From Polytrichum commune (Eukaryota > Streptophyta > Polytrichopsida > Polytrichales > Polytrichaceae): a stretch of DNA of 64,000 bases. Below the pieces are notes generated by a model, which saw nothing but the letters and a program-made list of their open reading frames with translations, was not told where the DNA came from and ran no database searches. Positions 1,916-64,000 of this stretch are shown here, piece by piece; the first letter of the stretch is position 1; each line of letters begins with the position of its first letter. The position numbers and the translations under genes were made by a program. Location of the stretch: the NCBI GenBank assembly GCA_950295325.1, contig OX485803.1, positions 50,421,554 to 50,485,553 on the forward strand, in the 5' to 3' direction.

Positions 1916-2803
1916 TCTTCATGTCTGCCTTAACAAAAGCTACACCATATAGTCCTAATATCAATGTGGATTACCAATTACATCTACATGTTGCTATAAA
2001 TTTTGATACAGATTTATCATTTTTTTTTCACTCAAATAAGATACACAAGTAATATGCATGTCAAGGAACATGAACTAACTTAGAGCCAATTCACACAAGT
2101 CCCAAATCCTAAGTTCTTGTTCACTTGGGGTCAATTCTTCATACCACATTTGAACTAAGGTGAGTGTATGAAGGGGTTTATTTGAGGCATTAGCATACGC
2201 AATATAAGGGAGAGGTATAATTTTTCCTCAGTGTGTACACCTAAAAAGATTATTAATCTTTTTGAAGTAAAGTTAGATGTACAAGAGGAGGCCCTACGAT
2301 TTAGAGATTAAAATTGACGATAGATGTGTTAGTTTCATCCACTTCCCGTTTTCACATGGTCATAGTCCTCAATGGCTACCATGCATGTTCTTGTTAGGGT
2401 TTGCATTTGGGTGTTAGGTTTTTACAAACTAGAGGCTCTTGGAGCTCTCATGGGCTTTCTTTAGTTTTGCTCTCTAGATCGTCACAAAGTTATTATGCTC
2501 TTGTCTTTATTTGTTTAATACAATTGTTGACTTACATGCTATGGATGAAATAATGTTCAATGACTTCTCATTGGAAAGTGGAACTAGATGTTATATGTAA
2601 TAGAGGTATAAGCCCAAAATGGTCGCTCATATTTTATTTATGTTTAGTATTTATTTAGAATTGCATTTGGAGTGTTATTGAAACAATCAAAAATATAAAA
2701 AGAGTGAGACTTGGTGTGGTTTATGTTTTAGGCCTTAAGCCTATTTTGTGTGGTTAATTAGAAGCTTAGTGATATTAGGGAGTGTTTTGGTTAAGTGTGT
2801 AGT
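1916..2803. other. AT-rich non-coding stretch
   Basis: No long open frame, RNA gene or repeat structure is recognisable here. It lies between two MITE-like elements. Confidence 0.5.
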
Positions 2804-3059
2804 ATCACTATATTCGTTAATTTGAGACTTTCTCTTGTCTCAAATTAATATATGAACCACAACAACATGGTCTAATGTTTGGGTCGTCCTACCTAAACCA
2901 TCTTGATATGAGTTCTTAATTGGGTTCTTGATATGAACACCCGCTTCAAAGAATTTGCATCTTACAACATTCTCCAATATATGTGTGATTTTATCCATGT
3001 TCTTATATTTGTAACTGTCTCAAAATGCTGAAAAGTCCCAAATTAACGAATATAGTGAT
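2804..3059. mobile_element. MITE with ends ACTATATTCGTTAATTTG, copy 1
   Basis: This is an element of about 255 bp with near-perfect terminal inverted repeats (ACTATATTCGTTAATTTG against the reverse complement of the right end at 3035-3056). Just inside the left end is a perfect hairpin: TTAATTTGAGAC, an 8-nt loop, GTCTCAAATTAA. The whole element is present again in the opposite orientation at 48813-49063 with very high similarity, and its hairpin end again at 57919. There is no coding capacity. The ends resemble those of Tc1/mariner-pogo MITEs, but the target duplication is not resolved. Confidence 0.85.
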
Positions 3060-3394
3060 TAGTGTTTGATGAAGCAAGGGGAAGGGCCTTAGATTTAAAT
3101 GTTTGATTTAGAACATGTTCTTGTTGGTTTTGGGGGTGAGGGTTTAGTGGATAGGATAAGGTCCTACTAAGTAGGAGAAGGTTAAGGGGTTTGTGGTTTG
3201 GGTGCACTCTTCTCTTCTCTTCTCTTCTCTTCTCTCTCTCTTCTTGAGGATCTAGAGCTCTTAGAGCTAGAAAAAAAATGTGTGAATTAGGTAAGGAGGT
3301 TTGAGGGGAATTAGTGAAATTAAGTAGGGAAATTAGGTAGGGGGTTTGGAAAAATTAGTGGAATTAGGTAGGGCTTAGTGGGATTAATTAGGAA
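3060..3394 (-). repeat. Distal part of core-repeat family copy A, with a (TCTTC)n microsatellite
   Basis: This is purine-rich DNA on the plus strand with repeated words such as GAATTAGGTAGGG. It includes a (TCTTC)n tract at about 3208-3240. It probably belongs to the same large repeat as the minisatellite and conserved core to the right, read on the minus strand. It has no coding signal. Confidence 0.35.
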
Positions 3395-3870
3395 TCTGGT
3401 TGAAGGGCAGCTGCCGAAGGCTCAAAGGCAATTCTGGTTGAAGGGTAGCTGCCGAAGGCTCAAAGGCGATTCTGGTTGAGGGCAGCTGCCGAAGGCTCAA
3501 AGGCAATTCTGGTTGAGGGCAGCTACCGAAGGCTCAAGGGCAATTCTGGTTGAGAGCAACTGCCGAAGGCTCAAAGGCAATTTTGGTTGAAGGGTAGCTA
3601 CCGAAGGCTCAAAGGCGATTCTGGTTGAGGGCAGCTGCCGAAGGCTCAAAGGCAATTCTGGTTGAGGGCAGCTGCCGAAGGCTCAAAGGGAATTCTGGTT
3701 AAAGGGCAGCTGCCGAAGGCTCAAAGGGAATTATGGTTAGAGGGCAGCTGCCGAAGGCTCAAAGGGAATTCTGGTTGAGGGCAGTTGCCGAAGGCTCAAA
3801 GGCGACTCTGGTTGAAAGGCAGTTGCCGAGGGCTCAAAGGGAATTTTGGTTTGAAGGGTAGCTGTTTGAA
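3395..3870. repeat. Minisatellite, about 12.5 copies of a 37-38-bp unit
   Basis: The unit starts TCTGGTTGAGGGCAGCTGCC and continues GAAGGCTCAAAGGCAAT. About twelve full copies and a degenerate last copy are visible, with 0-5 changes each. Unit length alternates between 37 and 38 bp, so a reading frame is not maintained and the array is unlikely to code. It lies inside repeat copy A, 330 bp from that copy's conserved core, which sits at 4197-4254. Confidence 0.95.
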
Positions 3871-4260
3871 GGACCGAGGTGATATAAGGGGAGGAGCCGT
3901 AGAGTTACACTAGACTAGGTGCTAGTTGGTTAAGTAGGTTGTGACCTAATAGTAATTAGATAATTAGTTCATTAGCAAGCTAGGTGACTACAAGGCATTA
4001 GTAGGTGGAATTAGGGGGTGGATTTGTGGTTGAGTTGTGTGGGATTGTAATTAGGGACGCTAATAGTGCCATTACGGAGAAGAGTGTTTCTTAACACTTG
4101 TAACCTTGTTATGGAATGAATTGGGGTGCCAAACATTGATGTGAAATGCAATGGAAATTAATGACATTGGAATGATTTAGCTAGGTTAGTCTGACTATGA
4201 TCCCCACTCCCTCACCCGGACTAGGACGCTTAAGGGTGTGTGGTTTGGCCTCACAAGAGG
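3871..4260 (-). repeat. Core-repeat family, copy A (proximal part and conserved core, minus strand)
   Basis: Read on the minus strand, 4254-4197 carries the conserved core (GTGAGGCC, then CACCC, TTAAGCGTCCTAGTCC, GGGTG, then the far arm). It is followed at about 4140-4080 by words shared with the copies at 62.5 and 63.5 kb (ATTCATTCCATAACAAGG, then a GTACAAG-like word and a TTGAAAAATG-like word in diverged form). The copy runs leftward through pyrimidine-rich DNA into the minisatellite. No protein is encoded. Confidence 0.7.
4197..4254 (-). other. Conserved foldable core, copy A
   Basis: The inner stem is CACCC/GGGTG (plus-strand 4213-4217 and 4234-4238) around a 16-nt loop. The outer arms are GTGAGGCC (4247-4254, minus strand) and a weaker partner at 4197-4205 (GGGGATCAT on the minus strand), which pairs at the ends but has two mismatches. 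Confidence 0.6.
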
Positions 4261-6128: not shown

Positions 6129-6455
6129 TGGTTGCGATAGGAATCCATTATATCCATATTGTATTGGATATCAATAGGACTAGAGATAAGATTATACAAG
6201 CATATAGACATACACAAAGGCATATGAACAGTGCTTGGAGTGAGATGATCTCAAGCTCTCCTTGCTTTGCCTTTTATTGTTTTTTTATTCTTTTCATTGG
6301 TTCATACAAACAATATGGGATAACTCTTATCCTCTTTGGACTAGCACTATAGCCTTATTGTAACCTTATCTCATGTTTTTTCCATTACATTTCTATCAAC
6401 TACAAGCAATCTAATGCTCTACCTTCTACACTCTCACTTTGTTAGTCAAAAACTT
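6129..6455 (-). mobile_element. Copia 3' LTR, degenerate (minus strand)
   Basis: Directly after the RNase H reading frame, the minus strand reads GTGTAGAAGGTAGAGCATTA and continues with blocks that recur after the second copia copy at 24530-24780. Shared blocks include GAAGGTAGAGCAT, GCTAGTCCAAAGA-like, AGAGTTATCCCATATTGTTT and the CTTTGTGTA...TATGCTTGT...ATCTCTAGTC words. This pattern, common to two independent pol copies just downstream of RNase H, marks the LTR start. The far boundary is not visible. Confidence 0.65.
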
Positions 6456-18130: not shown

Positions 18131-18178
18131 CCTTACTGCCCAAAGTTGATGAAATTCATAGATGAATTGCCGAAATAG

Positions 18179-18382
18179 ATGAAATCAGCACGCAACGCGC
18201 AGACGATGTTCTGGCTTAGCTTGTCTCTGCTCTCCCTTTTATTTGGCGGTGCGAAGATCTTAGGGTTTGTGTCGCGGGCGCTGCAGAGGACAGTCGCAAC
18301 CTCGGTGCAGAGCCGGGCTGTGGCTTTCGCTTTCGCACCCAAAGCCAGAACGTTTCCAAACACTCCATCGGCGTTTGGTAGG
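18179..18382 (+). CDS. Candidate first exon with a hydrophobic, basic leader (unrecognised)
   Basis: ATG at 18179 (second ATG at 18206) opens a frame with a strongly hydrophobic stretch (FWLSLSLLSLLFGG), then an Arg/Ala/Ser-rich, acid-free stretch (SRALQRTVATSVQSRAVAFA). This is the composition of an organelle-targeting or secretory leader. The frame runs into GCGTTTG|GTAGGC at about 18376, a possible splice donor followed by T-rich sequence. The patch is much GC-richer than its flanks. No continuation exon was identified within the next kilobase, which is occupied by a transposase pseudogene on the other strand. It may be a stranded exon or a captured fragment. I do not recognise the protein. 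Confidence 0.25.
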
Positions 18383-18389
18383 CTTTTTA

Positions 18390-18980
18390 TTCTCTCGTGA
18401 TGTTGGCTCTGGTTTTTCTTTGGGACCTCTTGCCGATCTGTACTTTCTGTACCTAAATATGGCTTGACTACCATAGTTTCTTCTCGAGATGATTGCAACT
18501 CGCTCACGCCAATCTTTGTTATCAATGTGAATTAGGTGAAGTGTATTCTGAGGTTTGTTGACAAAATATGACTGCTAAGATGTTTGGAATGTGATAGCAA
18601 GTGTGGATAGTATTTTATAGTGTCAGAATTTGGGAATCCAGCTTTGATAAACCGTATCAAGATTTGCAGAACAGAGGTTGTGTCACCAATCTGAGGGCCA
18701 CATTGGTTTTGTTAGGGTCCAACATAATTCTGACATTGTGTGACAACATCTGCACAATAAATACAAATTGATTTTAAGAATGTCCACCACCTTAACATCA
18801 GCCTCCCGGAATTTAGGATAATTCCCAACAACCATTAATTTCATGTTCTCATTATAATTCCTAATTTGACACCTAATTGCAACCACATTTAGATTGAACT
18901 ATTGCTTGGATGGAGTAGTTGCCTACAATACCGATGTAGATGGTTCCTCTGAAGCAGCGACAACTGATTTTGCTCCATTG
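18390..18980. other. Non-coding stretch
   Basis: No recognisable motif is seen here. It may be the 3' flank of the DDE transposase remnant on the minus strand. Confidence 0.35.
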
Positions 18981-19104
18981 TTGTGTTGATGTGTTGTCGC
19001 AGGCGTGGCTTGTATCAACTTGCCACTCTCAAGAATCTCAGCTCTGATCGCATCCATGTTCACATTCTCTGGCAGCCTCAATTTCTTATGCACTTGAACG
19101 TTGC

Positions 19105-19185
19105 TAAGAGAAGCTAGGTTTAAGTTCCCTCTACATCAATTGCAGAAGCTAAGTCTAAGTTTCCTCCACATCAACTGCAAGACAC
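19105..19185. repeat. Short direct duplication, unit about 40 bp
   Basis: AGAAGCTAGGTTTAAGTTCC and AGAAGCTAAGTCTAAGTTTC are adjacent copies, each followed by CTC(T/C)ACATCAA(T/C)TGC. They lie near the 3' end of the transposase remnant. Confidence 0.7.
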
Positions 19186-20880
19186 TCACTAACAATGTTG
19201 TTAAGTGGTATTGTAGGATCTGAGATGTTATCTTCTTCAATGTTTTCTTCAATTTCTGGAGTCACTTTGAAGAGTGGAGATTTAGCATTTGCTACCATAG
19301 CCTTGAGTTAAAATTCATGTATGAATGCCTTGTCTATCCCACACTTGTTCCAACCCTTGATAATCATGACTTGCATGTTCTTGACTTGTGTCCATGCATT
19401 GTGAAGTCATTCACAAATTAGTGGCTTCAAATTGCTCATCCTCAAGTCTACATCTCCTTCTATGCCACCCTCAATTTGAGTTCTAACTTGTGATGTGGTC
19501 CATTTGTGAAACTAAAACTTAAATGCATGTTTCAAAGGCCTTTGGAGAATCACATCAGCAGGCTGCAACTTTGAGGTACAATTGGCTGGAACAAATAGAA
19601 CTAGGACATTGGTATGCTCACTCTTGATCCAATTTAAAAATTCAGAACTCTTATGTACTGACTATGAGTCTATTAACCAAACAAGTTTTTGATTATTTGG
19701 CAAATTGTGCAAGTTGATCATAGAGGCTAAGTAAGGTTTAAGAACCTTCTCAACGAATTGCTTTGAAGTCTCCAATGTGCTCCAATGATTAGCTGAAAAT
19801 GCAAGATGCCAACTTTCTTCTAAACACCTTGCTTTTGCTTCAGTGTACTTTGGGAAACACCGATTAGTAGTACTTGTAAAAATTAGTTGAGGAGGTAAAA
19901 ACTCTCCTGATGCATTAGAGAAAACAACGCATGTTATTTGTCTATTGTCTTCTAAACCTAGGATTTTGTCATCCTTGACTCCTTTGACATCCCAGGTTCT
20001 TTTTCCTGTTCATGGTACTAAATGAATACCGGTTTGGTCTGAGTTTATCACCAAGCATGGAGGAATATTGTACACTTTTACAAGATAAGTTATTCTGTAA
20101 TTCATATTCAATTTTTGTTCCATCCAATCAGTAAAAACTTTGTTTGCAGCTGTAGTTCATTTACGAAATGTCCAATTCATATAGAATTTAACAAATTCTC
20201 TTGTCCATCTCATTGACACAAAGAAGCCCCCAAGAGTGTCATCTATTAATTCAGGTGCTACAGCTTCAATCATGCCTCTCAAGATTGGTTGGACAATGCT
20301 AAATGAAAGAGTGTGACCCCCTTTCCTCAATTTTTCAAGTTTAGACACCAATTGATCTCTCACATGAGGATGATTATCTAGGACATGAAGATTTTGCTTT
20401 TGATGTTTCACATGATGTCCGAGCTTTGATGCTTCTTTGAAATTAGGTCTTAGATCACCTTTGTCATCAAACCAATTCCATAGACTTGCTCTACTTAACT
20501 TCTTTTAAGGACTTGAAGCGTGAGGAGTTTTGAATGCTAGTTTCAAGTAATTATCAACATCAGTATTTCTCCCATATTTTTTGACAACCCTCTCAATAGG
20601 AAGGAATAACTCTTTTGTGAATCATTTATTGTATGGTCATTTTTTCCTCTTATGTTGATTGCCTCCTTTGTGCTCTTCATCACCTTCCTTCTCTTTCTTG
20701 ATTTGTTGAGGTTGAAGTAGAATTGAAGACTTTCTAGGATGATCTATTAGACGTTTTTCTGGGCTCTCTCTTTCCAAACTTTTATGAATTTCAGCTGCCT
20801 CATTCAAAACTTCAATTTCTTTTGCAAGAACTACTTCTCTCTCTCTTCTTGTGTGATTGTTTTGAATATAAAACTGAACA
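19180..20880 (-). pseudogene. Pogo/CENP-B-like DDE transposase, degenerate
   Basis: Minus-strand reading, with stops and shifts, gives an N-terminal charged part (EIEVLNEAAEIHKSLERESP). Then come a helical DNA-binding-like part (NYLKLAFKTPHASS, HVRDQLVSKLEKLRKGGH, FVSMRWTREFVKFYMNWTFRK) and a DDE core. The core has the first acidic residue in CLVINSDQTGIHLVP (about 20040), the second in KLVWLIDS (about 19672) and the third in ANCTSKLQPADVILQRPLKH (about 19553). N-x-DxTG, LIDxxxxH and the SxLQPxD ending are the signature of the DDE_1 / CENP-B-jerky-pogo superfamily. Stops lie inside the core (after LVP, after LIDS, and others), so the copy is dead. The longest intact piece is about 84 codons at 20157-20411. 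No TIRs were recognised around it. Confidence 0.72.
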
Positions 20881-21603
20881 TTGTTTGTTTCTACTCACTG
20901 TAAAATGCCATTGTAATCTAGGAAACCTCTCACTATCACACTATTCTACACATATAAACATCTATACTAAATCTTTGCATCAAAATTGTTCATACATACA
21001 ACCCCATCCTCAGACTGTGAACTATTTTATGAAAATATATTGTCTACAAAAACCACAGTATTTTTGAGCTTAAAGCGTTGAGAGGAGGGATGAATGTAAC
21101 AGAAATAACAAACTACAGTTATAATGCCGAATTTTCCGTTAATACTGTTCATGGGTATCAAATAATGATTAAAATATTGTTGTAACTGCAGAATGACCTT
21201 GCAGTAATTAAAATAATTATTCGGCACTTAAGTGCTGAATTGGCCATGCAGGTACGGTAGTGTCAAAAGATACTTGTCAAATTGGATCTTCCCTCGTCGA
21301 GGCGAATCGGCTAAGTCAAAAGAGTATCATTACTAGTCAATGTCGTTTTACTCCAGTCATTTAATCATTTTGTCGCGTAGTTATTTTAAATTTGGAATAT
21401 CCTAAACCTTTAGTCTTACCAACCACTCGATTATTGCATTTAACTAAGTTAATTCCGAAATAATCTTATAATAATCCATTTCCGCTTATTTTATTAGGAT
21501 TTACTTACTAAGCTAATTTCTAACTCCCAATTTATCCAACCGACACAATATTTACTATCTATTTTCTATTACCACTAATACTATGCTAATTTGGTAAAAA
21601 AAA
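20881..21603. other. AT-rich intergenic stretch
   Basis: No gene is recognised. A 12-bp palindrome, GCACTTAAGTGC, lies at about 21224-21235. Confidence 0.4.
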
Positions 21604-22440
21604 TCAAATTAAACCTTCACAAGGGGCCTCCAAATACTCGAATGTGGACAAGTCCACATCCCTCCAGTTAGGTTCCCGGTTCGGGGACGCACCCTCTCTG
21701 GTCCGGGAGGTCGCCTTCTTCCTCGAATCGGAGGTGTTCGTGGCTAGTGGCAATTCCGGAGATGTAGGTTCACTCAGAGATTCCTCCATTCCGGCTTCCG
21801 TCGACTCAATCCTGGATGTCAACTTGTACGCTACTTCATCCACCGCAAATGTAAGAGCATCTTCTTCTTCCTCCTTGACACATCCGCTCTGCTGATAGAG
21901 GTGAAAGAGGTAAGGAGAGAGGGGCAAGGGTTTCCTCCTGATATGGGGAATCGACTTCTCTACTAACCCCTGAATGAGCCTCCCCCAGTTGACGGGCCTT
22001 GCTCCGGAGAAAGCTCCGAAGATCGTGTTGGCCATGGTGATGCTCAACCGCTTGGGCTTTTCCGGATAGAGGATGGGAAAGAAAAACTCAATCACTCTCC
22101 GCTCCCTAGAATTTTTACAATCTACTGGATAGAATCCGTCTTTTGGGTCGTTCTCTGCTTTAAACTTCCATAGGAAATATGTATCTTTCCGGCTCGCCCA
22201 TCCCTCTCCTTTCCTCGGCACAAAGCCATAGACATCTGCCCAGGCATTTGCGGTCCACTGTTCCGGATCCCTCCTTATCGTTCTCTTCCACTGATTCCCT
22301 CACTCAAACAAAAACTCTCTCAACATGGCCTCATTCCGCAGATTCCAAAGCTTCGTAAGAAGACCTTCACACCCCATCTGGGTGAGGTCCTCCACCAAGT
22401 CTCGCATCTCCGCCTCCCGCTTGGGAATTGCACATTCCTA
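21604..22440 (-). pseudogene. Plant TE-associated open frame (gag-like or mobile-domain-type protein), disrupted at its start
   Basis: A minus-strand frame of 205 codons is intact from 22221 to 21604, and the same frame reads further upstream to about 22440 through two stops (E-stop-GNQWKRT near 22303 and a TAG near 22440). Phrases include REAEMRDLVEDLTQMGCEGL, WTANAWADVYGFVPRKGEGW, FYPVDCKNSRERRVIEFFFP, KPKRLSITMANTIFGAFSGA, PVNWGRLIQGLVEKSIPHI and SPYLFHLYQQSGC. I recall similar proteins as repeated TE-linked frames in plant genomes (MANTIFGA...VNWG...LSPYLFHLY); no named function is assigned. The C-terminal third is acidic and low in complexity (EEEEDALTFAVDE, Ser/Thr/Glu-rich). A TATA-like box (CATATAAAGG, minus) lies at about 22471-22480. 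GC content is higher than the flanks. Function unknown. Confidence 0.6.
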
Positions 22441-23040: not shown

Positions 23041-24545
23041 CATGACCAATGGTACGTGAGAATTGACCAATCTTTCAAATGATCGCAAGAATGTAGGGTG
23101 GAAATGGGTATTCTGCATTGAGAGGGATGCATTGGGTGAAATTGTGAGGTATAGGGTATGTTTAGAAAAAGTGATATTTTTAAGAGACCAGAGTGGATTT
23201 TAACGAGACCTTTGCCCCGGTGGCTAAGTTCATCACCATTAGATGTATTCTCGTATTTTGAGCAGCCATGGATTGGGAGATCTATCAAATGAACATAAAA
23301 ACATCGTTTTTTGAATGGAATATTGAAGGTGGAGATCTATATGGATCTACTGGAAGGGTTCATACAAGAGGGGAATGAACACCTTGTGTGTAAATTCAAT
23401 AAAATTTTGTACTGGCTCAAGCAATCGCCAAGGGCATGATACCACTGTATTGACTCGTTCTTCATTAACAAAGGTTTTTGTAAGAGCCAAGCGGATCATT
23501 TGTCATATGTCAAATAAACATGTACGTATTTGTTGGTGAAAATCCTCCATGTGGATAATTTGATCATATTGGCAAGCTATGTAATCCAATTGAAGTGACT
23601 CAAATTGGAGCTTGAAAAAGAGTTCGAGATGAACGATCTTGAAAAATTGTGTTATTGCATAGGAGTGGAATTTGAGAGAATGAGAGAAGCTTGTACCATC
23701 ATCATGAACCAAAGGAACTACATCAAAAAGGTCCTCAAACATTTCAACATAGAAAAATAGAAATCGGTCAGAGCTTTGTTCAATGCGAATTCAAAAATGT
23801 TAAAACTTTCGGATGAAGAATTTGGGAATGTGCAAAAGGAAATGGAAAGTGTTACATATAGGGCCAGGTAAGGATAACTCATGTATGCAATAGTGGGTAC
23901 AAGGGCCGATTTTACATTTGGTGTGAGTACTGTGAGCCAATTCATGTGGAAGGCCGATCCACTACATTGGATGACCGTGGAACGCATCATGAAGTATTTG
24001 AAGGGCACTTTGGACTTCAAAGTATGCCTCGTAGGCAAGGATATTTTCTTGAGAGGATATTGAGATGCGGATTGGGCATGAGATACAAACGACCGGCGAT
24101 CCGCCAATGGATACGTGTTTTTTTGTTGGTGTTGGAGTCATTTCATGAAAATGCAAGAAACAACCAACCATGCATTATCTACGATGGAGGCGGAGTACAT
24201 GAGCACTACCCACTGCACGAAGAAAGTGGTTTGGCTTGAACAACTTTTGGTGGATGTGGGATATGTGTAAGAAGGACCAACATCTATCATGTGTGACAAT
24301 CAAGGATGTATAGCACTTGCAAAGAATTCCACACACCGATCGCGGTCAACATCCCTTTATTAGAGAGAAACTAGAAAATCAAGAGATATATTTGAAGTAT
24401 TATCCAACGGAGGATATGATAGCATATGTACTAATTAAATCACTTACAAAGGATAGGCATCAAGCATTAACAAAGACAATTGGTTTAGAGGTCTTTGACT
24501 ACTCGCAAAGTGAGAGTGTAGAAGGTAGAGCATGGATTGCTCGTA
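23041..24545 (+). pseudogene. Ty1/copia pol remnant: reverse transcriptase and RNase H, second copy
   Basis: Plus-strand frames read ELTNLSNDRKNVGWKWVF, IERDALGEIVRYR, ETFAPVAKFITIRCILVF, AAMDWEIYQMNIKTSFFEWN, the catalytic segment, GVEFERMREACTIIMNQRNY, ANSKMLKLSDEEFGNVQKEM, MYAIVGTRADFTFGVSTVSQ, RIMKYLKGTLDFKVCLVGKD and then RNase H to EDMIAYVLIKSLTKDRHQAL. This is the copia RVT_2 to RNase H order, from the true RT start. The catalytic YVDD reads HVDN near 23551-23562. Many stops and shifts break it. Compared with the 6.4-7.7 kb copy it keeps the RT start but is more degraded in the middle. Integrase and gag are not upstream: the 21.6 kb frame is unrelated. Confidence 0.93.
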
Positions 24546-24800
24546 GTCAACAAAAATGTACTGGAAGAGGCATGATAAATAATAAGGCTACAATGCTAGT
24601 CTAAAGAAGGATAAGAGTTATCCCATATTGTTTGTATGAACCAAAGAAATAAAAAAAGCAATAAAAAGCAAAGCAGGGAGAACATGAGACCATTTCACAC
24701 CAAACGTTGTTTATATACCTTTGTGTAAGTGTATATGCTTGTGCATCTCATCTCTAGTCTTATTGACTTCCAATAAGGTCATCATACATGGGGCCTAGGA
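24530..24800 (+). mobile_element. Copia 3' LTR start
   Basis: GTAGAAGGTAGAGCATGGAT and the downstream 250 bp parallel the minus-strand LTR at 6455-6129. A TATA-like GTTTATATACC lies at about 24709. The match fades near 24780, and a TIR element starts at 24815, perhaps inserted into the LTR. Confidence 0.65.
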
Positions 24801-36284: not shown

Positions 36285-38051
36285 TTAGAAGCTCCACAGA
36301 TGCGGCTCCCAGCCAGTCATCCCATCGTCGCCATCTATGGCAGAATCAGGATCCGCGACCATAGACATCGGAGGAGGTGTGAGGCACATCCCGTCATACA
36401 TGCTGGTCAACACGTTCGGTAAATTGAAGATCAGATCCTCCTCCACGTACATAGCGGAATTCCGTTGCGATGATGTGGGTCCTGATCTATCTGCTGCTGC
36501 GAAGTTATCTGCAGGTCCAGCACCTGATGTTCCCTGCAACTGCTCCCTTGTGGGGATGAGCTCAAACGATGCCCTGCCTTCCAGAAATCTGTCCAGCACG
36601 TCTGGACATGACAATGGTCTTGTCTCAACCTCAATCTCCTCCACGCTAACACCCGAGCTGAATTCGGAGCCAATGTCACTCATTAATAAGGGTGGAGCAG
36701 ATTTCGTGGAAGAAGGGCTATCAGCAACGTCTGTGTGAGTCGACATCTGCAATCTATACTGTTGCTCATCCACACTGCTGCTAATAATTGCTTCCGGCAC
36801 TCTCTGCACCTGAGCTCCACGCAGATGAATATGGCGATGTTGTTGATGATGATGATCACTGGAGCTTGCAGTGGACGTCGAAGTAGTGCTCCGGGGTGAG
36901 CTTGGCACAGCCCACTGATCGGACAAAAAGGCTGACTCACCTAACCCCAAATCCTGCTGCTCAGTTTTGCAAGGGTTGAACACTGTTCGACTTCGGCTGA
37001 TGGCCTGAAGATGGTGATGATGATCACTAGTCGGCGAAAACTCGGAGGACTCATACGTTTGGTCATGATGATGAGTGAGAATAGTCGGAGCAGAAGAAGT
37101 CATCCGTGAGACTTCGGCAGCTGATGATGCTTCCTGATGCATTGAGTTATTATAGCTGCTTCGGTGCAACTTAACCCCTCGGGATGAGAATCGGCTGTTT
37201 GCAGCTAAAGTGGCAGCTGCTTGGATGGATTTGTCGGACAGGTCCTGGGGTTGAGGGAGAGACTCTGAAAGCTTCGGGAAGTTGAGCAATGCGCTCCCAC
37301 CTCGCAACGCAAGTGCTGCTGCATCGTAGGCTCGTGCAGCCATCTCTGGTGTCGCGAACGAGCCCAGCCAGATCCTCGATTTCTTCTTCGGTCTTCGAAT
37401 TTCTGTCACCCAGATGCCCCAGGGCCGCTTCCTTACACCCCGGTATAGCGGATGGCGAGTGTCACCCTCCACACCGAGCTTCGCCTTCTTCCGCACCATT
37501 GGCTCCGCAGGTTGCTGATGTTGCTGATGCTGTTCTTCTTGCTTCATCGAGGCTTTCGTTGAGCTTGAGGAGTTCCTCCGGTGCACCTGCGGAACCTCCT
37601 GCTCGGGTAAGTGGTCGGTGCAGAGTTCCATTTTCGGGGATTGGTCGAAGGTGTTGAGGATCTCTGCTTCAGGTGGTGTTTGGCCAGAAATGTTATGATC
37701 GATATAACCCTTGTTGTCGCCTGCCAGGAGGTTAGGATTCATATTGGAGCGATTACTGCTGCTTCTGCTACAGTTGCTGAGGAACGCCTTCGTATGGAGT
37801 ATGGAATCAGGTCGAGAGGATCCACATGGATTCTGATTATCCGGGAACTGCGAGGTGGTGGTAGTGGCGGTGGTGCGTGACGGCTGGGTCTCTAAAAAGG
37901 GCATTTTCGAAGGCGGGGAGAAAATCGGCATGGAGAGAGAATTGGAGGGAGCAGCACGGAGAAGTTTGAGAAGGTTGGAGGTGCTCTTGACTGAGTTTAG
38001 TGAAGAGGATTTTTCCACCATGATCACTACCCGGTATGTGATTCCCTTCAT
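36285..38051 (-). CDS. AP2/ERF transcription factor, DREB subfamily (A-4-like), long form
   Basis: A sequence-specific nuclear activator/repressor family; DREBs bind DRE/CRT sites (core CCGAC). The frame is uninterrupted for 588 codons from ATG at 38051; an in-frame stop lies upstream at 38091-38093. ATG at 38021 (578 codons) has the better context (A at -3, G at +4) and may be the true start. Counting from the upstream TTG at 38087 as residue 1, the single AP2 domain is at about 214-271: [49 protein letters not shown]. Domain position 14 is Val, as in DREBs; position 19 is Arg instead of the usual Glu. A basic RKKAK (199-203) is a likely nuclear signal. [10 protein letters not shown] (288-297), [19 protein letters not shown] (549-567) and the C-terminal HLWSF match motifs of the A-4 group, the last resembling LWSY. 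The rest is Ser/His/Gln-rich and disordered. Intronless, as usual for DREBs. Angiosperm A-4 proteins are typically less than half this length. Confidence 0.93.
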
Positions 38052-38916
38052 GCAACTCAATTTTGGTCCAACAGGAATCAGGATCAACCGCTAGACTCTA
38101 AGAAACTTTGTGCTCAGCACCAGCTATCTCCTTTCAACAATTTCCTCCCTCCCTCATAGCGCAGTAGGAACTTAATGTTTGCTTCAACCTCCTATGCTGT
38201 CTTTCTCCCACAAAGTTGAAATTTTACCACCGAAATATAATGTTAATAGTCTCAATCTTTAGGTTAAAAATTGGACGAGCTTCAAAGATATTCTGAAATC
38301 TCCTGAAGCTCGCATTCTCTAATAGTTGACTTAATGTGAAATTTGCCCTTTTTCTGAAAATTTGGCAAACGGTTGTTAAATCGGAGTCAGTCCCTCTTGC
38401 AAGAAGATCACCTACCAACACTCAATATTATTTTACACAGTTGACTAGCTCAGGAGTGACAGCGGTGGCAAGTAGGAAAAGTTGGCAACACTACCCGAAT
38501 AGCTGTTAGTTCGGAACACCGTGACTTGCATTCGGCCAGTCAATTTGGAGCAGCCTCTCGTGGTCGTGGGAACCATTTCGGTATCTGCTGATGCTAATTC
38601 TCAAGTTTCAATCCTGATGCAATTAATCGAATACTGCAGTGCGCTGACTACAGCTCAAGGAACCCATTTCGGTGTCTGCTGATGCCTATTCTCAAGTTTG
38701 AACCCGCCCCAAACTCTGAAACTCCTCTATGTCATCACCTGCTCATCTACTGCAAAAACAGGTGGATGTGACCGATGGTTCTCCCTAGTACGTATCTCTC
38801 AGTTCACAATGCAGGTGGCTGTCTGGACGGTCAGCATCTGGTGCATCACTAGTAGAGAAATCTCTTATCCCAACCTGGATAATTAGCTGTCTGACCTTGA
38901 ACCCTTAAATATATGA
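38052..38916 (-). promoter_or_regulatory. Probable 5' leader/proximal promoter of the DREB gene
   Basis: A TATA-like ATATATTTAAG (minus strand) lies at 38904-38914, which would give a leader of about 830 nt. Nearby is a loosely duplicated passage: CGGTATCTGCTGATGC at about 38579-38594 and CGGTGTCTGCTGATGC at about 38669-38684, both followed by TATTCTCAAGTTT-like words (90-bp direct repeat). The start site cannot be fixed from sequence. Confidence 0.35.
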
Positions 38917-48812: not shown

Positions 48813-49063
48813 ACTATATTCGTTAATTTGGGACTTTTTCGGCATTTTTAGACAATTACAAATATAAGAACATGGATAAATTCACACAAATATTGGAGAA
48901 TGTTGTAAGATGCAAATACTTTGAAGCGGGTGTTCATATCAAGAACCCAATTAAGAACTCATATCAAGATGATTTAAGTAGGACGACCCAAACATTAGAC
49001 CATGTTGTTGTGGTCCATATATTAATTTGAGACAAGAGAAAGTCTCAAATTAACGAATTTAGT
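48813..49063. mobile_element. MITE with ends ACTATATTCGTTAATTTG, copy 2 (inverted relative to copy 1)
   Basis: Full length, reverse orientation of 2804-3059. It carries the TTTTTCGGCA-like subterminal word at its left and the perfect GTCTCAAATTAA hairpin at its right end. Differences from copy 1 are few over 250 bp, so it is the youngest-looking element family in the window. Confidence 0.87.
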
Positions 49064-50060
49064 GATAAAAGTCTTAAAACTAACATACCATGGGCTTCGG
49101 TAGGGTGGGGAGTTAAAGTAATATAATATATTAGGAGCCCACACTATGGATGAGAACCATTGGATGACATCTCATGGATGTCTCTCATTAGTTGAATGTC
49201 ATCTGCCGGGTTAGATGCAAGAAGGGCTTCCGACGGGTTTGTGCATTTTGCTTGGCTTTGTGAGTTCCCCATTAGGAATTGCGGGATCTCTTTGAAGTTC
49301 TTATGTTTGTGCAAACTCCCACCACCTTGCAAATTTGGTGAATGATGGTTGATTGGTGAAGGTTGGATAGTAGGCACACGTGGATAGTTTTGCTCCTTAG
49401 GTGTGCCCATCCCAAGCTTCAATTTTCCTACTTTCGGATTTTTTGCTCACTTGTAGGGTTTTGAGTTCTTCTTGTGATTTCTCACAATTTTCCGGGAGCA
49501 TTGTTGAGGTAGAGGAAGGGGGCGACATCAACATGAGGTGTTCGTATGAGTGGTACCAACTGCAACTCGGTTCTAGTGAGGTTGTTGGTCACAAACTAGG
49601 TTTGCAACGTCTTTGAAGTTGAAATATTTGTCCCTTGATGATGCCTATGCTAGTCCAAAACTTATTGGATTTGCTAGGGCGACACATATGCAAAACTTAA
49701 ACTACTACTTGAGGGTGATCATATTGTAGATTGGCCCTTTTAATTCTTTGATAATGAGAGTAGATGCATGATTGATTGCAAGCTTGAGGGGGTCAAGCTT
49801 GGTCTAGAACTCCATATTTGGTAACTGAGAGGAGGAGGTTAGTAGGTGGGCCTCAATTTGAGAAAATGGGAGTAGCTAGTTGGCTCATACGAACCCTATC
49901 CCATCAGATTTCCTCTACATTTGGTAGGTTTGTCCATATTCACACTAGAATTTGGTGGGCGAGCGGCCTACATGGAAACTCACCCTAATTAAGTTTGGCT
50001 CTTAATGACCAATATTTGATTCCAACATTCCAATATTGAAAATGAGTACTTTCAAGATGG
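49064..50060. other. Stretch with a decayed open frame on the minus strand
   Basis: A minus-strand frame at 49144-49422 (92 codons) reads Pro/Asn/Ser-rich sequence (VPTIQPSPINHHSPNLQGGG, CTNPSEALLASNPADDIQLM) with a protein-like look, and fragments continue to about 49650. It may be a remnant of a TE protein. I cannot name it. Confidence 0.25.
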
Positions 50061-56417: not shown

Positions 56418-57918
56418 TCATGGGAAATTGAGCCCGTAGTTACTTGATTGGCAAGTGACAAGCTTTGGGCTTATAATTGACTTTTGAGTGTATTTGGACA
56501 ACCCACTTGTCCAAGAACAATAAGGGATGTGCACTTGTGTGGACAAAAACATCAAATGACAACAACAAAAGTAACACCACAACAACCACAACTTCAAATG
56601 CTTGTATTCCATGTTTGCCAACCACCATATTGCGATCTAGTGTACATCATATTGGTGGTTGGTATTGTACAAAATTCTTGCATAAATTCCAAATAAACTT
56701 TAATCCTAGTTTTATGAATGATAAGGATCTAGTCAATCATGCATTATACATTTGAACTATTCCATGAGTAAATAGGGTGGACCATAGCCACACTTCAACC
56801 ATCATCCATGCATAAGGTAGACGTGCCTAAATCAAACATAACAATAATATTGGCATTTGTATTTGGACTACTTGCTAAAATATGTCAAGCATTCTAGGCT
56901 ATGTATGAGCTTTGCCACCTCAAATCCCAAATTGATCTTTGCAAGGCTAGGTTGGCCCACCCCTCCTTGTAGGAAAAACTAGAGATTTGTCATTGAATAG
57001 CCCGAGATCACTCTTTGAGTAACTGATATAAGCCTTAAGAAAACTTTAGTAACTTTATGGATATGTCTCAAACTCACGTTTTAGCTAACTCAATGGGAGT
57101 TTGATCCCAATACTTTATGCATAACTCTTATCAACATAGATGTACCTAGTTTTGTTACCTATCTTAACTAGATGCCTATATTTGAGTGTTATGTGGTTAG
57201 GTGTGGCTTCAAGAAGGGTCACCAGAAACTTCACATTTTTTCAAAAAGGTGAGTAAACTACATGCTCAAAATTACTGCTAACCATTTTGTTCTAATCATG
57301 TGTTTTATATTCAAGGAGAAGTGGAGTACCTAGTTAGAAAGAGTAACCATAGAGGACCATTTGCATTATTAAATATTTACCCAATCAATTTATTGTGTGT
57401 ACCTATAAATGAATGAATAAATAGACATTGGCATTCTACTAAGATGAAATTTGAGCTTGTTAGTGCACCCTCTTCAAGAGTTCTCTTCTTACAAAGGCAG
57501 GGTAAACTACTTATCCTTGCGGTAGGTGGGCTTAGTTTGGATACATAGGTACACTAAATAGTCCTCTTACTCTGGGTCATAGTAATTTTCTAGAGCTCAC
57601 TCTAATTCTCATAACAAGTTCTCATGTGGGTCACATTAATTTTCAGCCCATATTAGATTTCTAGTAGAAATTTAGTGTGGATCACATACATAAATTCTCT
57701 GGAAAATTAGTGTAGTTGATTATTTTGTTATTTGTTACTTTTGTCATAGAAGTAGTATTCAATGTGTTGGTTGGAAGCCTTTGTGAAGACTTAGGGGAAG
57801 ACCCGAGGTCTTGGACCCATGTTAATTTCACCTCAACTAGAAAATTAGTGTGGCTCACGTTGATTATTTCCACATTAATTTTCCACCCACGTTAATAGGA
57901 AATTTAGTGTTATTTAAC
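56418..57918. other. AT-rich stretch with dispersed repeats
   Basis: The ATGCCTATATTTGAGTGTTA block at about 57171 is shared with 41-45 kb. At 57600-57910, AATTTTC and GAAAATTAGTGTGG words recur in both orientations, suggesting a decayed inverted-repeat element. No gene. Confidence 0.4.
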
Positions 57919-57981
57919 ACTATATTCATTAATTTGAGACTTTCTCTTGTCTCAAATTAATATATGGACCACAACAACATG
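57919..57981. mobile_element. MITE with ends ACTATATTCGTTAATTTG, copy 3 (truncated end)
   Basis: ACTATATTCATTAATTTGAG, the perfect subterminal hairpin and ATATATGGACCACAACAACATG are present. Similarity stops at about 57981 and the other end is missing. Confidence 0.8.
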
Positions 57982-58879: not shown

Positions 58880-60470
58880 TGGATATGACATGCACCATTG
58901 GGAGGAAGGGTGGCGGCCTGTGAGCCCTAAACCCCCACCCTTGTGCGTCGTAGTCCGGGTGAGAGCTCATGGCTCACATGCGTTTTCCTTACCACACATC
59001 AACTTTGGGATTCACTTCCCCACCATCCCACAAGGCCACTGTTTAACACACAAATCTTTATTTATGCCTAAACATGGATTTAGGCATTAAGAAATACCAT
59101 GTTCCCTTGTGGTCCCACATTCCGGGTCATTCAATTAAATCCACTCCTAACCTTAACAATTGCCATGATTACGTCTAATCAACTAATACTAACCCTATTT
59201 TCTTAAGGTGTTTAGGCTACCACAACCCCGGCCACTTAGTCCTCCTTAACAGCTCGGGTCCCTACCTCCTCGAGTCTCAGTCACCCCTGTCACCTCCTGT
59301 TACCCCTTGTAGCCGTGGCCTTCACCCCAGTTCGGTTCCCCTTTAATCACCGCCTCTGTGCTCACTACATTCAGCTCCCAGCTTGGCCCTCACAGACCTC
59401 CTAGTCGTCCTTGCGTTGCAGCGTGGCTGCCCCTGGAATTGCCTGGCTCGTTGATACACCAACCGCCACTTCGATCTGAGTTGGCTCACACTTGTAATTC
59501 CCTTCATCCACCTGACGCCACCCAAGCACCCTCGGCCGACCCCTGCACTCAAAAAATGAGCTGAGGACTTGCAACCCTTCTGCCTCTCGGAAAGATCACC
59601 CTGGTCGCACAACCTATTATGAATGTCCACCTCCTGGTCAATCAACCGCAAGGTTATTACGTCCTCACCCTTTGAATTATAAAATCCTCACATTTTGCAT
59701 TGAACCGCACTAGCGCATGAATCAATTCCGTATGCTCCAGAATCACAGCTGCAGAACAGAGCGCATTTAGCGTCGGCAGCAGTTGTGGCCCGGCTCCGGT
59801 GCCTATCCCACTTCCTTCCCCTTCTCGCATTCCTCTTGTCTGCTCAACTCCAGCGGCATTCCCAGGCCCTGTCGCCAAATCCCAACCCCACCAGGATCCA
59901 CATCTAGCCAGCCAACACCCACATCCAACCCGAATACACCCTGGTGCGACCTGGTGAAAAAAAATTGATCCTACTCCCGCTAGCTCATGGGCTCTCGCCG
60001 CAATCTGGTGCACCAGCTAACTTCGTTGGAGTGAATCCTCAGCTCAAACAGCAATGTTGTTGACCTTAAGCCCTTGCCTTCGAACATTCGACAGGGTCTC
60101 CCCCTCGCCGCCCTCTTCCTGGCCAACTTCTGATAGAGAGAGTTTCAACCTCTGCTGCCTTCCTCGACTGCCTTCGGTTGATCCGAGAATTCTGGGCCTG
60201 ATCCATTTGAAAGGAACCCCCCTTCCTCTAAACAACACGACACTATCCTAAAATGAACAATTAATTCTAGCCTAGGACCCTACAAGTGCTAACCTCATTT
60301 CAGGCCTCCCGCCACCCTAAGGGTTTCCGACCTTGATTAATTCCCAACTAATTCTCCCACCCTTAACACAAAGTCACCCTCACACAATTCTAATAAATGT
60401 CACTCATGTTTATGTCTTTAAGAGTTTAATAAAAACCCAAAGCATAGATTTTCCTAAATTCAAGGTTTAA
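58880..60470 (+). repeat. Core-repeat family, copy C
   Basis: It starts with the conserved core (58919-58978), continues with a GCATTAAGAAAT-like word near 59084, then C/T-rich, GC-richer DNA to about 60240. The right boundary is uncertain. Frames on the minus strand at 59343-59651 and 59657-60013 arise from low-complexity GC-rich DNA and are not called as genes. Confidence 0.55.
58919..58978 (+). other. Conserved foldable core, copy C
   Basis: The outer stem TGTGAGCC / GGCTCACA (58919-58926 and 58971-58978) is perfect over 8 bp. The inner stem CACCC / GGGTG (58936-58940 and 58957-58961) encloses TTGTGCGTCGTAGTCC. It is the best-folding copy. Confidence 0.7.
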
Positions 60471-61538
60471 GAACCTGTGGGAGCACGCATTTTGGGCTCA
60501 CACGACCACATGTATTTTTTCAAGTGTAATGAGGAGAAAAGGTACGTGATAAGTGATTCAGAACAACAACTTCTACAATGTAACTCTGAAGCATCATATA
60601 CATATGAAATCATGATATTACTCTACTTGAACTCAAACATTACGGTATATTTTAACCAATATGTAGACAAAAGGAGTGACAACATTGTGTAACGCCATAT
60701 GGTAAGAGTCACTAAATACAATAGTTAAATTAGTTATTAAGATCTTCGCATGAGGAATTATATAATATTGAAAACAAATGATGTCATGACAAAGTTGATT
60801 TATTGTTCCAAATCTCAATTTGCGAGAAACCAATGACTTCAACTTGTTTGGAAAATTTAGGGTATGGTGTCATATAAGTAAGGGTTAAGTATTAGTCTTA
60901 GCATAAAGTTTTGCTGTAAAAATGCATTAGTTGTATAAATGATTAGTTTTGTAGAATACTGCATTTGATGTAGCACCTTAGGGTACTCCAGAGTGTCTTG
61001 AAAAAACCAATACCCGCTAAGGGTTTAGAGTTAGGTTTTAGGATTTAAGGTTCCCTGTAACCCTATTTCTGTGGGTACCCTAATGTTGTGGGCTCCCTAA
61101 TCGTTCAGTTGGGGGCTTGTTCCCGAGGTAAACAAAACCCCAACTGTCACAATTTTTTCATTCGTTCTCTTCTCTGCCAAGCATTTGCTCCGCGCTTCTC
61201 CTGAAGCGTTGCGGCGATTTAGGGTAGCGTTTTGTTTTCTTCACATTCTCCCGCCTACTGTTTCTTCTCCTTCCCTCCATTCTCTTGCTCTAGCGTAGGA
61301 TTGCACTTATGCAATCTTAGGTGTTAGAAAGTGTTTTCATTAGAACAGAAACATACGGAGAAAGGGTTTAGTGCTTGAGGGTGAAGGAAGTGAGTAGAAG
61401 AGTGTTGATGTGGTTTTAGTACATTGTGTAAAAGTTTTAGCTTGTGTTTGCGAGGTTCAGGTGTTTGTAGATTGAAATTGTTTGTGCCATTCACCTGGAC
61501 TTGGCGGGTTTGGGAGTTTGTATTGTTTGGAGTGCTTG
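60471..61538. other. Intergenic stretch with leader-like composition at its end
   Basis: AT-rich to about 61000. Then come telomere-like words (GGGTTTAGAGTTAGGTTTTA at about 61020) and a pyrimidine-rich GC-balanced patch (61140-61320) that resembles a transcript leader. No open frame follows that I recognise. Confidence 0.35.
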
Positions 61539-61698
61539 TGAGATTCAGGAGTTCTTTAAGAGTATCAGGAGTTGTTTGAGAGATTTAGAAGTCGTTTGAA
61601 AGATTCAGTAGTTGTTTGAGAGATTCAAAAGTTGGTTGAGAGATTCAAAAGTTGTTTGAAAGATTCAGTAGTTGTTTGGGAGTTTCAGAGCCTGTGTG
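61539..61698. repeat. Minisatellite, about eight copies of a 20-bp unit
   Basis: The consensus is GAGATTCAGAAGTTGTTTGA; units are in step with few indels (AAGATTCAGTAGTTGTTTGA, GAGATTCAAAAGTTGGTTGA and so on). The first unit contains a small insertion. A 20-bp period does not maintain a reading frame. Confidence 0.92.
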
Positions 61699-61955
61699 AA
61701 ATTTAGACTTTTTATAATACTCATAGTACGAAATACATGCAGCTGTTTGTGTGATAATGAGAGTGTTTGGAAGAACAACAACTGCTCTACTCCAAAGTGT
61801 TTGCAACAACAACTTTTAAAGGCAATGTGTTTTATTATACCTAACATGTTTTAGTTAATTCATGGTGTTGTAGTATACACAACGCATAAGCATTGTATAT
61901 GTTACGTGCCAACTTTTAAAAGCTATATTAAAATAGAACAGTTTCGGGAGACGAC

Positions 61956-62090
61956 CCAAACATAGCCTCTTGGTTGGGTCGGTCAACCCAAACACAACAC
62001 ACAACATTTTGTTTGAGTCGGTCGATCCAAACATAGCACACAACATCTTGTTTGAGTCGGTCGACCGAAACACAACCTCTAACTTCTAAA
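61956..62090. repeat. Three tandem copies of a 39-bp unit carrying a palindrome
   Basis: Units centre on TTTGAGTCGGTCGA(T/C)C and start at about 61972, 62011 and 62050, with exact 39-bp spacing. On the minus strand the array keeps an open frame with a 13-residue repeat (FGSTDSNKMLC-VM type), but the flanking frame ends quickly, so coding is unlikely. Confidence 0.9.
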
Positions 62091-62400
62091 CTTACCAGCA
62101 TATCCATGATGTTGCAAAAAATATAAAATGCAAATCCAACCAAAAATATCAAAACACCATATCAAAATATAAATGATGTTGACATATAACAATACACAAT
62201 CCACCAAAACAGATGTGCCAAGCCTTGTGTGATTTGTGCTTGGGTCGATCAAACAAAACTTGGCAATCAGTGCACCCATTATATTTCCATTACATCACAT
62301 GACATCTAATTCATTTTGAAGAAGTTTGGGTCGATTGATAGAACTAACATTGTTGTTGTTTTCCTTGCAGATGGCCCCAAAGAAAAGACCCAGAGAGAGT
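62091..62400. other. AT-rich stretch before copy D
   Basis: Two more half-sites (CTTGGGTCGATCAAAC at about 62239, GTTTGGGTCGATTGAT at 62323) extend the palindrome series. TTTTCCTTGCAG|ATGGCCCCAA at 62371 looks like a splice acceptor followed by an ATG, and the frame after it reads a basic MAPKKRPRESVSHKPPPLKR into the repeat core. I treat this as probably fortuitous. Confidence 0.4.
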
Positions 62401-62459
62401 GTCAGCCACAAACCCCCACCTCTTAAGCGTCGTAGTCCGGGTGTGAGTATGAGGCTGAC
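62401..62459 (+). other. Conserved foldable core, copy D
   Basis: The outer stem GTCAGCC / GGCTGAC (62401-62407 and 62453-62459) is perfect over 7 bp. Compared with copy C (GTGAGCC / GGCTCAC), both partners of one base pair changed together (G-C to C-G). The inner stem is CACC / GGTG (62417-62420, 62439-62442). Confidence 0.7.
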
Positions 62460-63427
62460 ATCCTAAGCTTAGTTCATTCTTGCCTTCCAACAATGTGCAG
62501 ACCCCTACAATGCTAATATCCAACGAACCAGTTTATTTCATAATGTAGGTACAAGCATTGAAAAATGTTTTTTCTCCTCTCTCCTTCCTCCCAATCTCTC
62601 ACAAATCCACGCTCACATCCTACCTCTAGATCTCACCTCTACCTCATGGCCATGCCCATAATGGCTCATGAAATCATTAAAAAAATCTACTTCCCTAGCC
62701 TAATCGTTGCTATTCACTACCTTCATTCGCCCAACTCATGGGAAGGCCGCCTCATTATGTGCCCAGACCCTTCCTTCCTTCCCCGGCTCAGTTCCCGAGA
62801 CAACAATCTGAGCTGTTCATTGTGGCTGCCTTACCCGTCAACGCCCTTCAACCCCTTAACGCTGCCAGGTCAGCTGGTTACAATGGCCAACTGGCGCTCC
62901 GAGTTGGCAGTTCTTCTTGCCACCTCCCTACTGCAACCTACCCCTTGCGACCTCCTCCTGCGACCTTCTCATGCCAGCTTCCTCACCCCTTGAAATTCCA
63001 TAGCTCAATCTGAATGAATTCCACTTCTGCACGTGCCCTGGAGTAGAGCCGCACTGCGCTTTCCAATCCCTGAATTAACTTGCCCTTCTCAGCTGGGAGG
63101 GTGAATTCCCAAGTGCGCAATTCATCCCATGACTGGAGGATTGATTCATCAAAATTCAATCTGGTGTGTTGATTGAATCCCCTTCCAAGAATTTCCCAGG
63201 TCCTATCACACGAATGCGGCCATTATGTATTGAATTCAATCCTCCCCTACCTGTCTTGACCGGCATTTACCCTTCTCCAGCCATTCCAGAGTTCGAAGCG
63301 AACCTCCCTAGCTAACTCTCTCATCTTCTACTCTTCATCCTCCCTGTGATTCTTGTTGGCAACCGCCTGGCATTCTCTCCCTTAGGTAGCCATCACTCAA
63401 CATCGCCCCTGTCTCAAGCAACTACCT
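62401..63427 (+). repeat. Core-repeat family, copy D
   Basis: The core at 62401-62459 is followed at about 62530-62568 by GTTTATTTCATAATGTAGGT then ACAAGCATTGAAAAATG, both shared with copy E. C/T-rich DNA then runs to the start of copy E. The frames at 62565-62993 and 62738-63013 are products of the pyrimidine-rich tract. Confidence 0.7.
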
Positions 63428-63485
63428 GTGAGGCCAAACCGCCCACCCTTAAGCGTCCTAGTCCGGGTGAGGGCATGGGTATCAC
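63428..63485 (+). other. Conserved foldable core, copy E
   Basis: Outer arms GTGAGGCC (63428-63435) and GGTATCAC (63478-63485) pair except for one G-A mismatch and one G-U. The inner stem CACCC / GGGTG is at 63444-63448 and 63465-63469. The loop TTAAGCGTCCTAGTCC is identical to copy A. Confidence 0.65.
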
Positions 63486-63734
63486 ATTCATGTTCACATA
63501 ACTCCCTTTTACCAACTTCGTAAAAATCCATTTCATTTCCCATCAACTCTTGCACACCAATTTATTCCATAATAAGAGTACAAGCATTGAAAAATGGTCT
63601 TCTCTATTTATCCCCTTCTCCCTACACTAATTTACACACCAACCCTCAACTCACTACCCAAAAGCTCATTCCCCCTAGGCCACCCTCTAATTGTGGACCC
63701 AAATCCCCTAATGCCCTTGGCCCTACCCGGCTTA

Positions 63735-63790
63735 TACCCGGTATTCTACCTGGTTCCATAACCGGTCTTCTACCTGGTTCCATCACCGGG
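63735..63790. repeat. Short tandem repeat, 24-27-bp unit
   Basis: CCGGTATTCTACCTGGTTCC, CCGGTCTTCTACCTGGTTCC and CCGGGTCTTC follow one another, separated by ATAA/ATCA. Confidence 0.8.
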
Positions 63791-64000
63791 TCTTCGGCCC
63801 AGCAGCTTCAGATAGCCGAACTCAGTAGCAATCTCAACCAAGGCCTTCGGCCTAGCAAATCAGTAGCTTCAACTCGCCGAACTCTGTAGCAATCTCAGCT
63901 AAGGCCTTGGCCCAGCAAATCAGTAGCTTCAACTCGCCGAACTCTGTAGCAATCTCAACTAAGGCCTTCGGCCCAACAATCAGTAGCTTCAACTCGCCAA
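63790..64000. repeat. Tandem repeat, about 60-bp unit, truncated by the window end
   Basis: Units run CCTTCGGCCCAGCAAATCAG, TAGCTTCAACTCGCCGAACT, CTGTAGCAATCTCAACTAAG. Nearly identical later units (from about 63842, 63902 and 63961) follow a shorter first unit, and the array continues past 64000. Confidence 0.92.

Follow-up and report, generated by a model that had tools for sequence, protein, structure and literature searches.

Detailed knowledge of how a primer tRNA is chosen and opened comes from the long terminal repeat (LTR) elements of yeast and from retroviral ones. Extended interactions with the primer tRNA are described, in the available part of one account, for Ty1, Ty3, human immunodeficiency virus type 1 (HIV-1), feline immunodeficiency virus (FIV) and Rous sarcoma virus (RSV); parts of the Ty3 primer-binding site (PBS) hybridise with the acceptor stem and T arm of the tRNA, and the D arm contacts RNA of the unique 3' region (U3) (PMC5371799). 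This study considered a repeat core in a 64,000-nt stretch of a 408-Mb plant genome (Polytrichum commune, contig OX485803.1, 50421554-50485553); the whole stretch is referred to here as the window. The core is the last ~62 nt, the unique 5' (U5) end, of the LTR of an abundant Ty3/gypsy family. It probably belongs to a two-part grip on the primer, in which the loop of a hairpin at the U5 end and the PBS of the element RNA would both engage tRNA-Gly(UCC), and this grip is best read as a novel form of the extended contacts with primer tRNA made by Ty1, Ty3 and HIV-1.

Yeast Ty3 and Ty1 likewise hold their primer tRNA by a divided PBS, as the same account reports (PMC5371799). Here, in contrast, a U5 hairpin immediately ahead of the PBS would supply the second segment with its loop, and this loop matches the 5' acceptor strand and the 5' D-stem strand of tRNA-Gly(UCC) rather than parts of the initiator methionine tRNA. 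The primer activation signal of HIV-1 lies in U5 and pairs with the T arm, whereas the match in the present family is to tRNA nt 1-13. As would be the case here, RNA outside the PBS pairs with the primer tRNA in that system and supports initiation (PMC5371799). A U5 inverted repeat (U5-IR) loop is described at the retroviral 5' end in the portion available of PMC3601003. The retroviral U5-IR, LTR-terminal stem-loops and palindromic plant LTRs likewise represent stem-loops at LTR ends. Some plant Ty3/gypsy LTRs start with a palindrome, and we know of no retroviral or plant LTR-end stem-loop that presents the complement of the 5' end of the primer tRNA. The Cassandra terminal-repeat retrotransposon in miniature (TRIM) is likewise a plant LTR element with a conserved RNA-derived sequence in its LTR, located in ferns 8 nt from the PBS according to the section available of PMC7215508. 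It differs from the present family in that its sequence is that of 5S rRNA, its PBS is TGGTATCAGAGC and it has no coding region. Among the matches listed in a literature search of titles and abstract openings, nothing comparable was found for plants, and a search on the core words returned no match.

Within the window, the 20-nt core occurs four times with at most three mismatches (mean and maximum of 0 in 100 dinucleotide shuffles). An earlier note on this DNA had placed it at the same four sites, with limits that agree within 1-2 bases. The copies open alike at TGTSAG, and in the alignment the sequence ahead of TGTSAG is unrelated between them. All four appear to be solo LTRs flanked by 5-bp target duplications, with one mismatch in that of copy B; the letters B and C used here differ from the lettering of the earlier note. 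The features of the four copies are as follows.

2602..2606: target-site duplication on one side of copy A
2607..4255, sense plus: apparent whole solo LTR, copy A, flanked on each side by the target duplication AGAGG (minus-strand reading CCTCT)
4195..4255, plus strand (sense plus): U5-end hairpin of the LTR of copy A, located by the core search; alone no more stable than shuffles
4256..4260: target-site duplication on the other side of copy A
58919..58979, sense minus: U5-end hairpin of copy B (-35.0 kcal/mol, z -6.4)
58919..60502, minus strand: apparent whole solo LTR, copy B, with the target duplication CGGCC / CGACC (one mismatch)
62400..62461, sense minus: U5-end hairpin of copy C, carrying the flipped pair
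62400..64000, minus strand: apparent solo LTR, copy C, with copy D inserted; extends past the window to 65187, with the duplication GAGAG on both sides
63427..63487, sense minus: U5-end hairpin of copy D
63427..64000, minus strand: apparent solo LTR, copy D, nested in copy C; extends past the window to about 64689, with the duplication CTACC on both sides

Genome-wide, the core was counted 2,226 times at up to two mismatches (reversed-pattern control, 0), a number that is a lower bound because copies like B carry three mismatches. When copy B was searched against the genome, the best 40 of 1,391 candidates were scored, and 34 of these 40 start at one common base of the query, to within 4 bases. 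The boundary is similarly sharp in 36 copies gathered from 20 fetched 9-kb loci and the window, with an identity of 0.84, 0.89 and 0.73 in the first three 20-nt blocks, 0.35-0.58 further in and 0.26 outside. Models of both element ends, used to delimit the LTR copies, place the core unit at one end of an element about 0.8-3 kb long (nested inserts not counted). Both LTR ends are in view in 31 copies, for which target duplications were read by eye: 18 are perfect over 5 bp, 7 match at 4/5 positions, 3 copies have none and 3 adjoin a PBS (5 further copies have no second end in view). The units end in TG...CA (TA...CA in some copies, in sense) and are flanked by target-site duplications, which identifies them as LTRs. 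A coding reading of copy C had been considered by eye and was dropped once this boundary was found.

In three loci that were found without asking for a PBS, the hairpin abuts CTCCCGGCGGACGCACCATTTA (L027 differs at one base), which on the opposite strand reads TAAA followed by TGGTGCGTCCGCCGGGAG, a PBS. Because the PBS lies on the other strand, the motif is the 3' (U5) end of the LTR and its sense is opposite to the strand of the earlier note, an orientation that had been assumed initially and was reversed when the PBS appeared. A query comprised of U5, PBS and leader identified 41 places, of which 20 were fetched; all 20 junctions consist of the U5 hairpin, a spacer of TAAA or TAAT and then the 18-nt TGGTGCGTCCGCCGGGAG, with at most two mismatches in 22. 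Since the query itself contained hairpin, spacer and PBS, the agreement of these 20 junctions represents constancy and not independent discovery. For the PBS-bearing copies L049 (with L009), L072, L073, L074 and L050 (with L015), the fetched stretches end before any 3' LTR.

Stretch L071 contains an internal region and one LTR, followed by a second PBS. Its open frame, searched in four pieces, matched Retrotrans_gag, Asp_protease_2, RVT_1, RT_RNaseH, Integrase_H2C2 and rve in that order, and the family is assigned to the Ty3/gypsy class because of this order of gag, protease, reverse transcriptase, RNase H and integrase behind the PBS in one copy. At a second locus (L050), the frames behind the PBS are gag-like by eye only, and protease families matched below the Pfam cut-offs. 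At L009:412-1412 (minus strand), behind the PBS leader of L009_2561, frames resembling a hAT-type transposase by eye occupy the place expected for gag, with no Pfam match. The U3 end of the LTR also resembles a short hairpin (TGTGAGCCCAA...GTGCCCACA) and shares its terminal word with the U5 hairpin (e.g., L017:6062-6085 and L071:7350-7380).

The PBS predicts a tRNA ending in CTCCCGGCGGACGCA-CCA. The 5' word of plant tRNA-Gly(UCC) was found at 18 genome places (11 GCGTCCG and 7 GCGTCTG; control, 0), and 5 of the 5 fetched places were called as tRNA-Gly(tcc). The tRNA of L075 provides an exact complement of the PBS with its 3' end plus CCA (18/18); GCGTCTG-type tRNA fits at 17/18 positions, and L076 and L077 are each one T-arm base off L075. 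The GCGTCTG form occurs as a wheat small RNA in the part available of PMC5411081. The loop of the U5 hairpin, GGACUA(C)(G)GACGC (antisense reading GCGTC(C)(G)TAGTCC), is complementary to nt 1-13 of this same tRNA, a span running from the 5' acceptor strand through U8-A9 to the 5' D-stem strand. The complete 13-mer is present in L009_5692 and in three PBS loci (L063, L064 and L069), while the other 17 of the 20 PBS loci have one base deleted (12/13). Across the 55 aligned copies discussed below, 28 carry one single-base deletion, 10 carry the other and a single copy has the full word. Of 50,000 shuffles, 7 gave an exact match of 13 nt at any position of the tRNA. For the two 12/13 types, any tRNA 13-mer within one edit was reached in 8 and 4 of 2,000 shuffles and nt 1-13 itself in 0 of 2,000 each, and for copy B nt 1-13 within one edit was reached in 7 of 20,000. 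Duplex energies of the loop with tRNA nt 1-20 are -28.4, -22.1 and -21.8 kcal/mol for the three loop types.

As sense RNA, the U5 end folds at best into 8 outer and 13 inner pairs, 21 in total, around a loop of ~16 nt. The nested arms and the flipped pair pointed out previously are present, as GTGAGCC/GGCTCAC at 58919 (copy B) and GTCAGCC/GGCTGAC at 62400 (copy C). Copy B folds at -35.0 kcal/mol in sense (z -6.4) and -21.2 in antisense (z -2.6), copy C at -25.8 vs. -22.1, and copy D at -25.0 (z -2.2) vs. -21.1; a model of the sense alignment likewise scored copy B at 89 bits in sense and 32 in antisense. The better-folding strand of B, C and D is therefore the reverse complement of the one first proposed, while the opposite holds for copy A, the fold of which does not beat shuffles on either strand (sense -15.7 kcal/mol, z +0.4; antisense -18.4, z -0.5).

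Pair conservation was assessed in a sense-strand alignment of 55 copies (49 distinct), 39 of which were recruited through similarity to copy B. The 16 non-recruited copies (the 4 in the window and 12 bystanders in the fetched loci) were found with a profile of the four window copies. In the whole alignment, 92.5% of cells are paired vs. 45.6-51.2% for slid partners; there are 19 cells changed on both sides vs. 6.5 +/- 1.9 in shuffles (0/500 reach this) and 5 pairs with a both-sided change vs. 3.0 +/- 0.9 (19/500). In the non-recruited copies, 86.3% of cells are paired vs. 40.0-52.3% for slid partners, both-sided cells number 17 vs. 8.2 +/- 2.2 in shuffles (0/500), and the covariation score is 0.265 vs. 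0.173 +/- 0.015 (0/500); a less favourable measure, the number of both-sided pairs, gives 5 vs. 3.8 +/- 0.9 (109/500). Because the shuffle controls keep relatedness in, the covariation is good and not final evidence. These results support the earlier proposal of selection on folding within a non-coding part of a mobile repeat; a loss of the arms in most copies, which would have told against it, was not seen, as the 16 non-recruited copies retain the helix. Additionally, a core-pattern set of 20 copies, from the 100 listed of 2,226 and all on one chromosome, was inspected by eye: all 20 keep the inner stem and the outer 5 pairs (one mismatch in L110), an outer arm that is shorter than the 7-8 pairs originally described.

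The flipped pair itself is paired in 16/16 non-recruited copies and takes five forms (GC in 12, and AU, CG, GU and UA), but it is unpaired in 24 of the 49 distinct rows of the full alignment. On the strand of the earlier note, it reads C-C in 24 of 53 copies counted (two shorter matches left out), which had led to an interim view that compensation was not supported; this view was revised after the 16 non-recruited copies were all found paired. The unpaired rows would come from recruitment, with the top matches to copy B enriched for the partner base of B.

Combined, these findings point to the two-part grip on tRNA-Gly(UCC) as the probable function of the hairpin. In such a mechanism, the hairpin would form at the U5 end of the genomic RNA, with the 18-nt PBS four nt beyond. 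Its loop would make the first contact, with the 5' side of the tRNA (acceptor strand and D stem), while the PBS would take the 3' acceptor and T-arm side; the acceptor stem would thereby be pulled open and the correct tRNA selected and held, after which minus-strand synthesis would start. The loop would be conserved because the tRNA is conserved, and the stems would vary yet stay paired because their sole task would be to present the loop. Both the binding of the tRNA by the loop and its aid to priming are predictions from sequence complementarity.

Several observations weigh against this grip. In 16 of the 55 aligned copies, the loop departs from the 13-mer by one to three edits of other kinds. 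The shuffle figures for the loop are not a clean test, because the match was found before the test and both main lineages lack one of the 13 nt. For the 12/13 types, the longest uninterrupted matches of 6 and 8 nt are unremarkable (reached by 26,840 and 2,135 of 50,000 shuffles), and the local-alignment score of loop against tRNA is not significant for any of the three types after search correction (525, 1,793 and 1,495 of 20,000). RNAcofold leaves the loop outside the tRNA duplex and prefers the hairpin plus the PBS duplex, although it is silent on loop-tRNA pairing because such pairing is pseudoknot-like and beyond its model. A duplex of 12-13 bp in a 16-nt loop would also be strained, requiring a shorter kiss or an opening of the inner stem. 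Finally, the analysis covered a single primer tRNA, tRNA-Gly(UCC), and the loop part GGACGC also complements the PBS because the two strands of the tRNA acceptor stem are mutually complementary.

This last complementarity allows for the main alternative arrangement, in which the loop (GGACGC or GACGC) would pair with the PBS (GCGUCC) of the same RNA and mask the primer site, to be opened later by the tRNA or a protein. All 20 U5-PBS junctions show this complementarity, which follows from the tRNA acceptor stem; the pairing covers only half of the conserved loop, however, and leaves GGACUA without a PBS partner. These letters are kept nonetheless (invariant or at least 90% conserved in the 55 copies, apart from the C, replaced by T in some) and fit tRNA nt 8-13, so that masking of the PBS appears unlikely next to the two-part grip. 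Conservation of the end mainly as DNA, as a palindromic terminus for integrase with a coincidental loop match, is a still more doubtful explanation. LTR termini are integrase signals according to the portion available of PMC3601003, the hairpin-like U3 end has the terminal word of the U5 hairpin, and the sense fold of copy A is no better than its antisense fold; in contrast, copies B, C and D pair better as sense RNA via G-U pairs that are mismatched on the other strand, and the most conserved block lies at nt 21-40 from the end and not at the tip.

Conservation of both loop and stem, together with the sharp boundary, could also be expected of a self-cleaving ribozyme or of a packaging hairpin in a stand-alone non-coding element. 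This is very improbable, given that the boundary is that of an LTR flanked by target duplications and that no Rfam family reached its gathering score in the whole window; in 62300-64000, at E up to 5, the four sub-threshold Rfam matches were to two small nucleolar RNA families, a long non-coding RNA and a riboswitch, with no ribozyme. The suggestion of a replication element in the earlier note was close, in that the repeat is the U5 end of a Ty3/gypsy LTR, whereas a stand-alone or ribozyme-like element did not hold up; packaging may be an additional role of the hairpin. The likeness of TTAAGCG to part of the 5S box A (RGTTAAGYRHGY as quoted in the section available of PMC7215508) would be consistent with a polymerase III promoter of the 5S-like type known from Cassandra elements. 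Box C is unrecognisable by eye, however, no Rfam 5S match was found, the PBS is not TGGTATCAGAGC and gag-pol is present, which makes such a promoter scarcely credible. A Cassandra or 5S-type TRIM was likewise rejected, being contradicted by the PBS and the coding region.

Beyond the U5 end bearing the putative tRNA grip, the sequence immediately ahead of the 3' LTR is CCCCCGATGGTCGCCAATTA instead of a polypurine tract, in L071 (7290-7360) and in 12 of 12 fetched junctions (L080-L091). The 12 junctions were drawn from 375 genome places (control, 0) that match a pattern with CCAWTTA fixed before the LTR, so that copies with a polypurine tract would be missed. The segment CCCCCGATGGTCGCCA plus ATTA ahead of the 3' LTR has the layout of a tRNA 3' end, with a T-stem strand (5), an acceptor strand (7), a discriminator (1) and CCA, and the ATTA after the CCA mirrors the TAAT spacer at the PBS. 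A far-fetched extension would be that the family, while holding one tRNA from both sides for the minus strand, has lost its polypurine tract and primes the plus strand from a second CCA-ended tRNA or tRNA-like primer; against such a second primer, no tRNA gene with that 3' end and the T loop GGTTCNANN was found in the genome within one mismatch. The idea that the inverse complementarity of the inner LTR junctions (CCAATTA / TAATTGG) follows the TAAA lineages was rejected, as all 100 listed of the 375 3' junctions are CCAATTA.

Other features were observed in the window. Within LTR copy A, an element of ~250 bp with inverted ends (CACTATATTCGTTAATTTG...) lies at 2791-3050; a related sequence is at 57903-57981, and an inverted copy at 48836-49067 shows 96% complementarity across 232 nt. 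This element looks like a miniature inverted-repeat transposon. Copy A also contains a 37-bp tandem repeat of 12.5 copies (3395-3864), and copy D a 60-bp tandem repeat (63800-63998). Two inverted arms of ~1.4 kb (6274-7687 and 23241-24667), about 15.5 kb apart and 77-92% alike in pieces, frame minus-strand reading frames at 18133-22299. On the minus strand at 36285-38090, a 601-aa open frame with an AP2 domain represents an ordinary plant transcription factor gene.

Overall, the hairpin provides a marker for an abundant Ty3/gypsy family, and how the plus strand is primed is a question of its own, posed by the apparent absence of a polypurine tract. If a hairpin beside the PBS displays the anti-sequence of the 5' side of the primer tRNA, a rule would follow for such elements: the loop should follow the primer tRNA.

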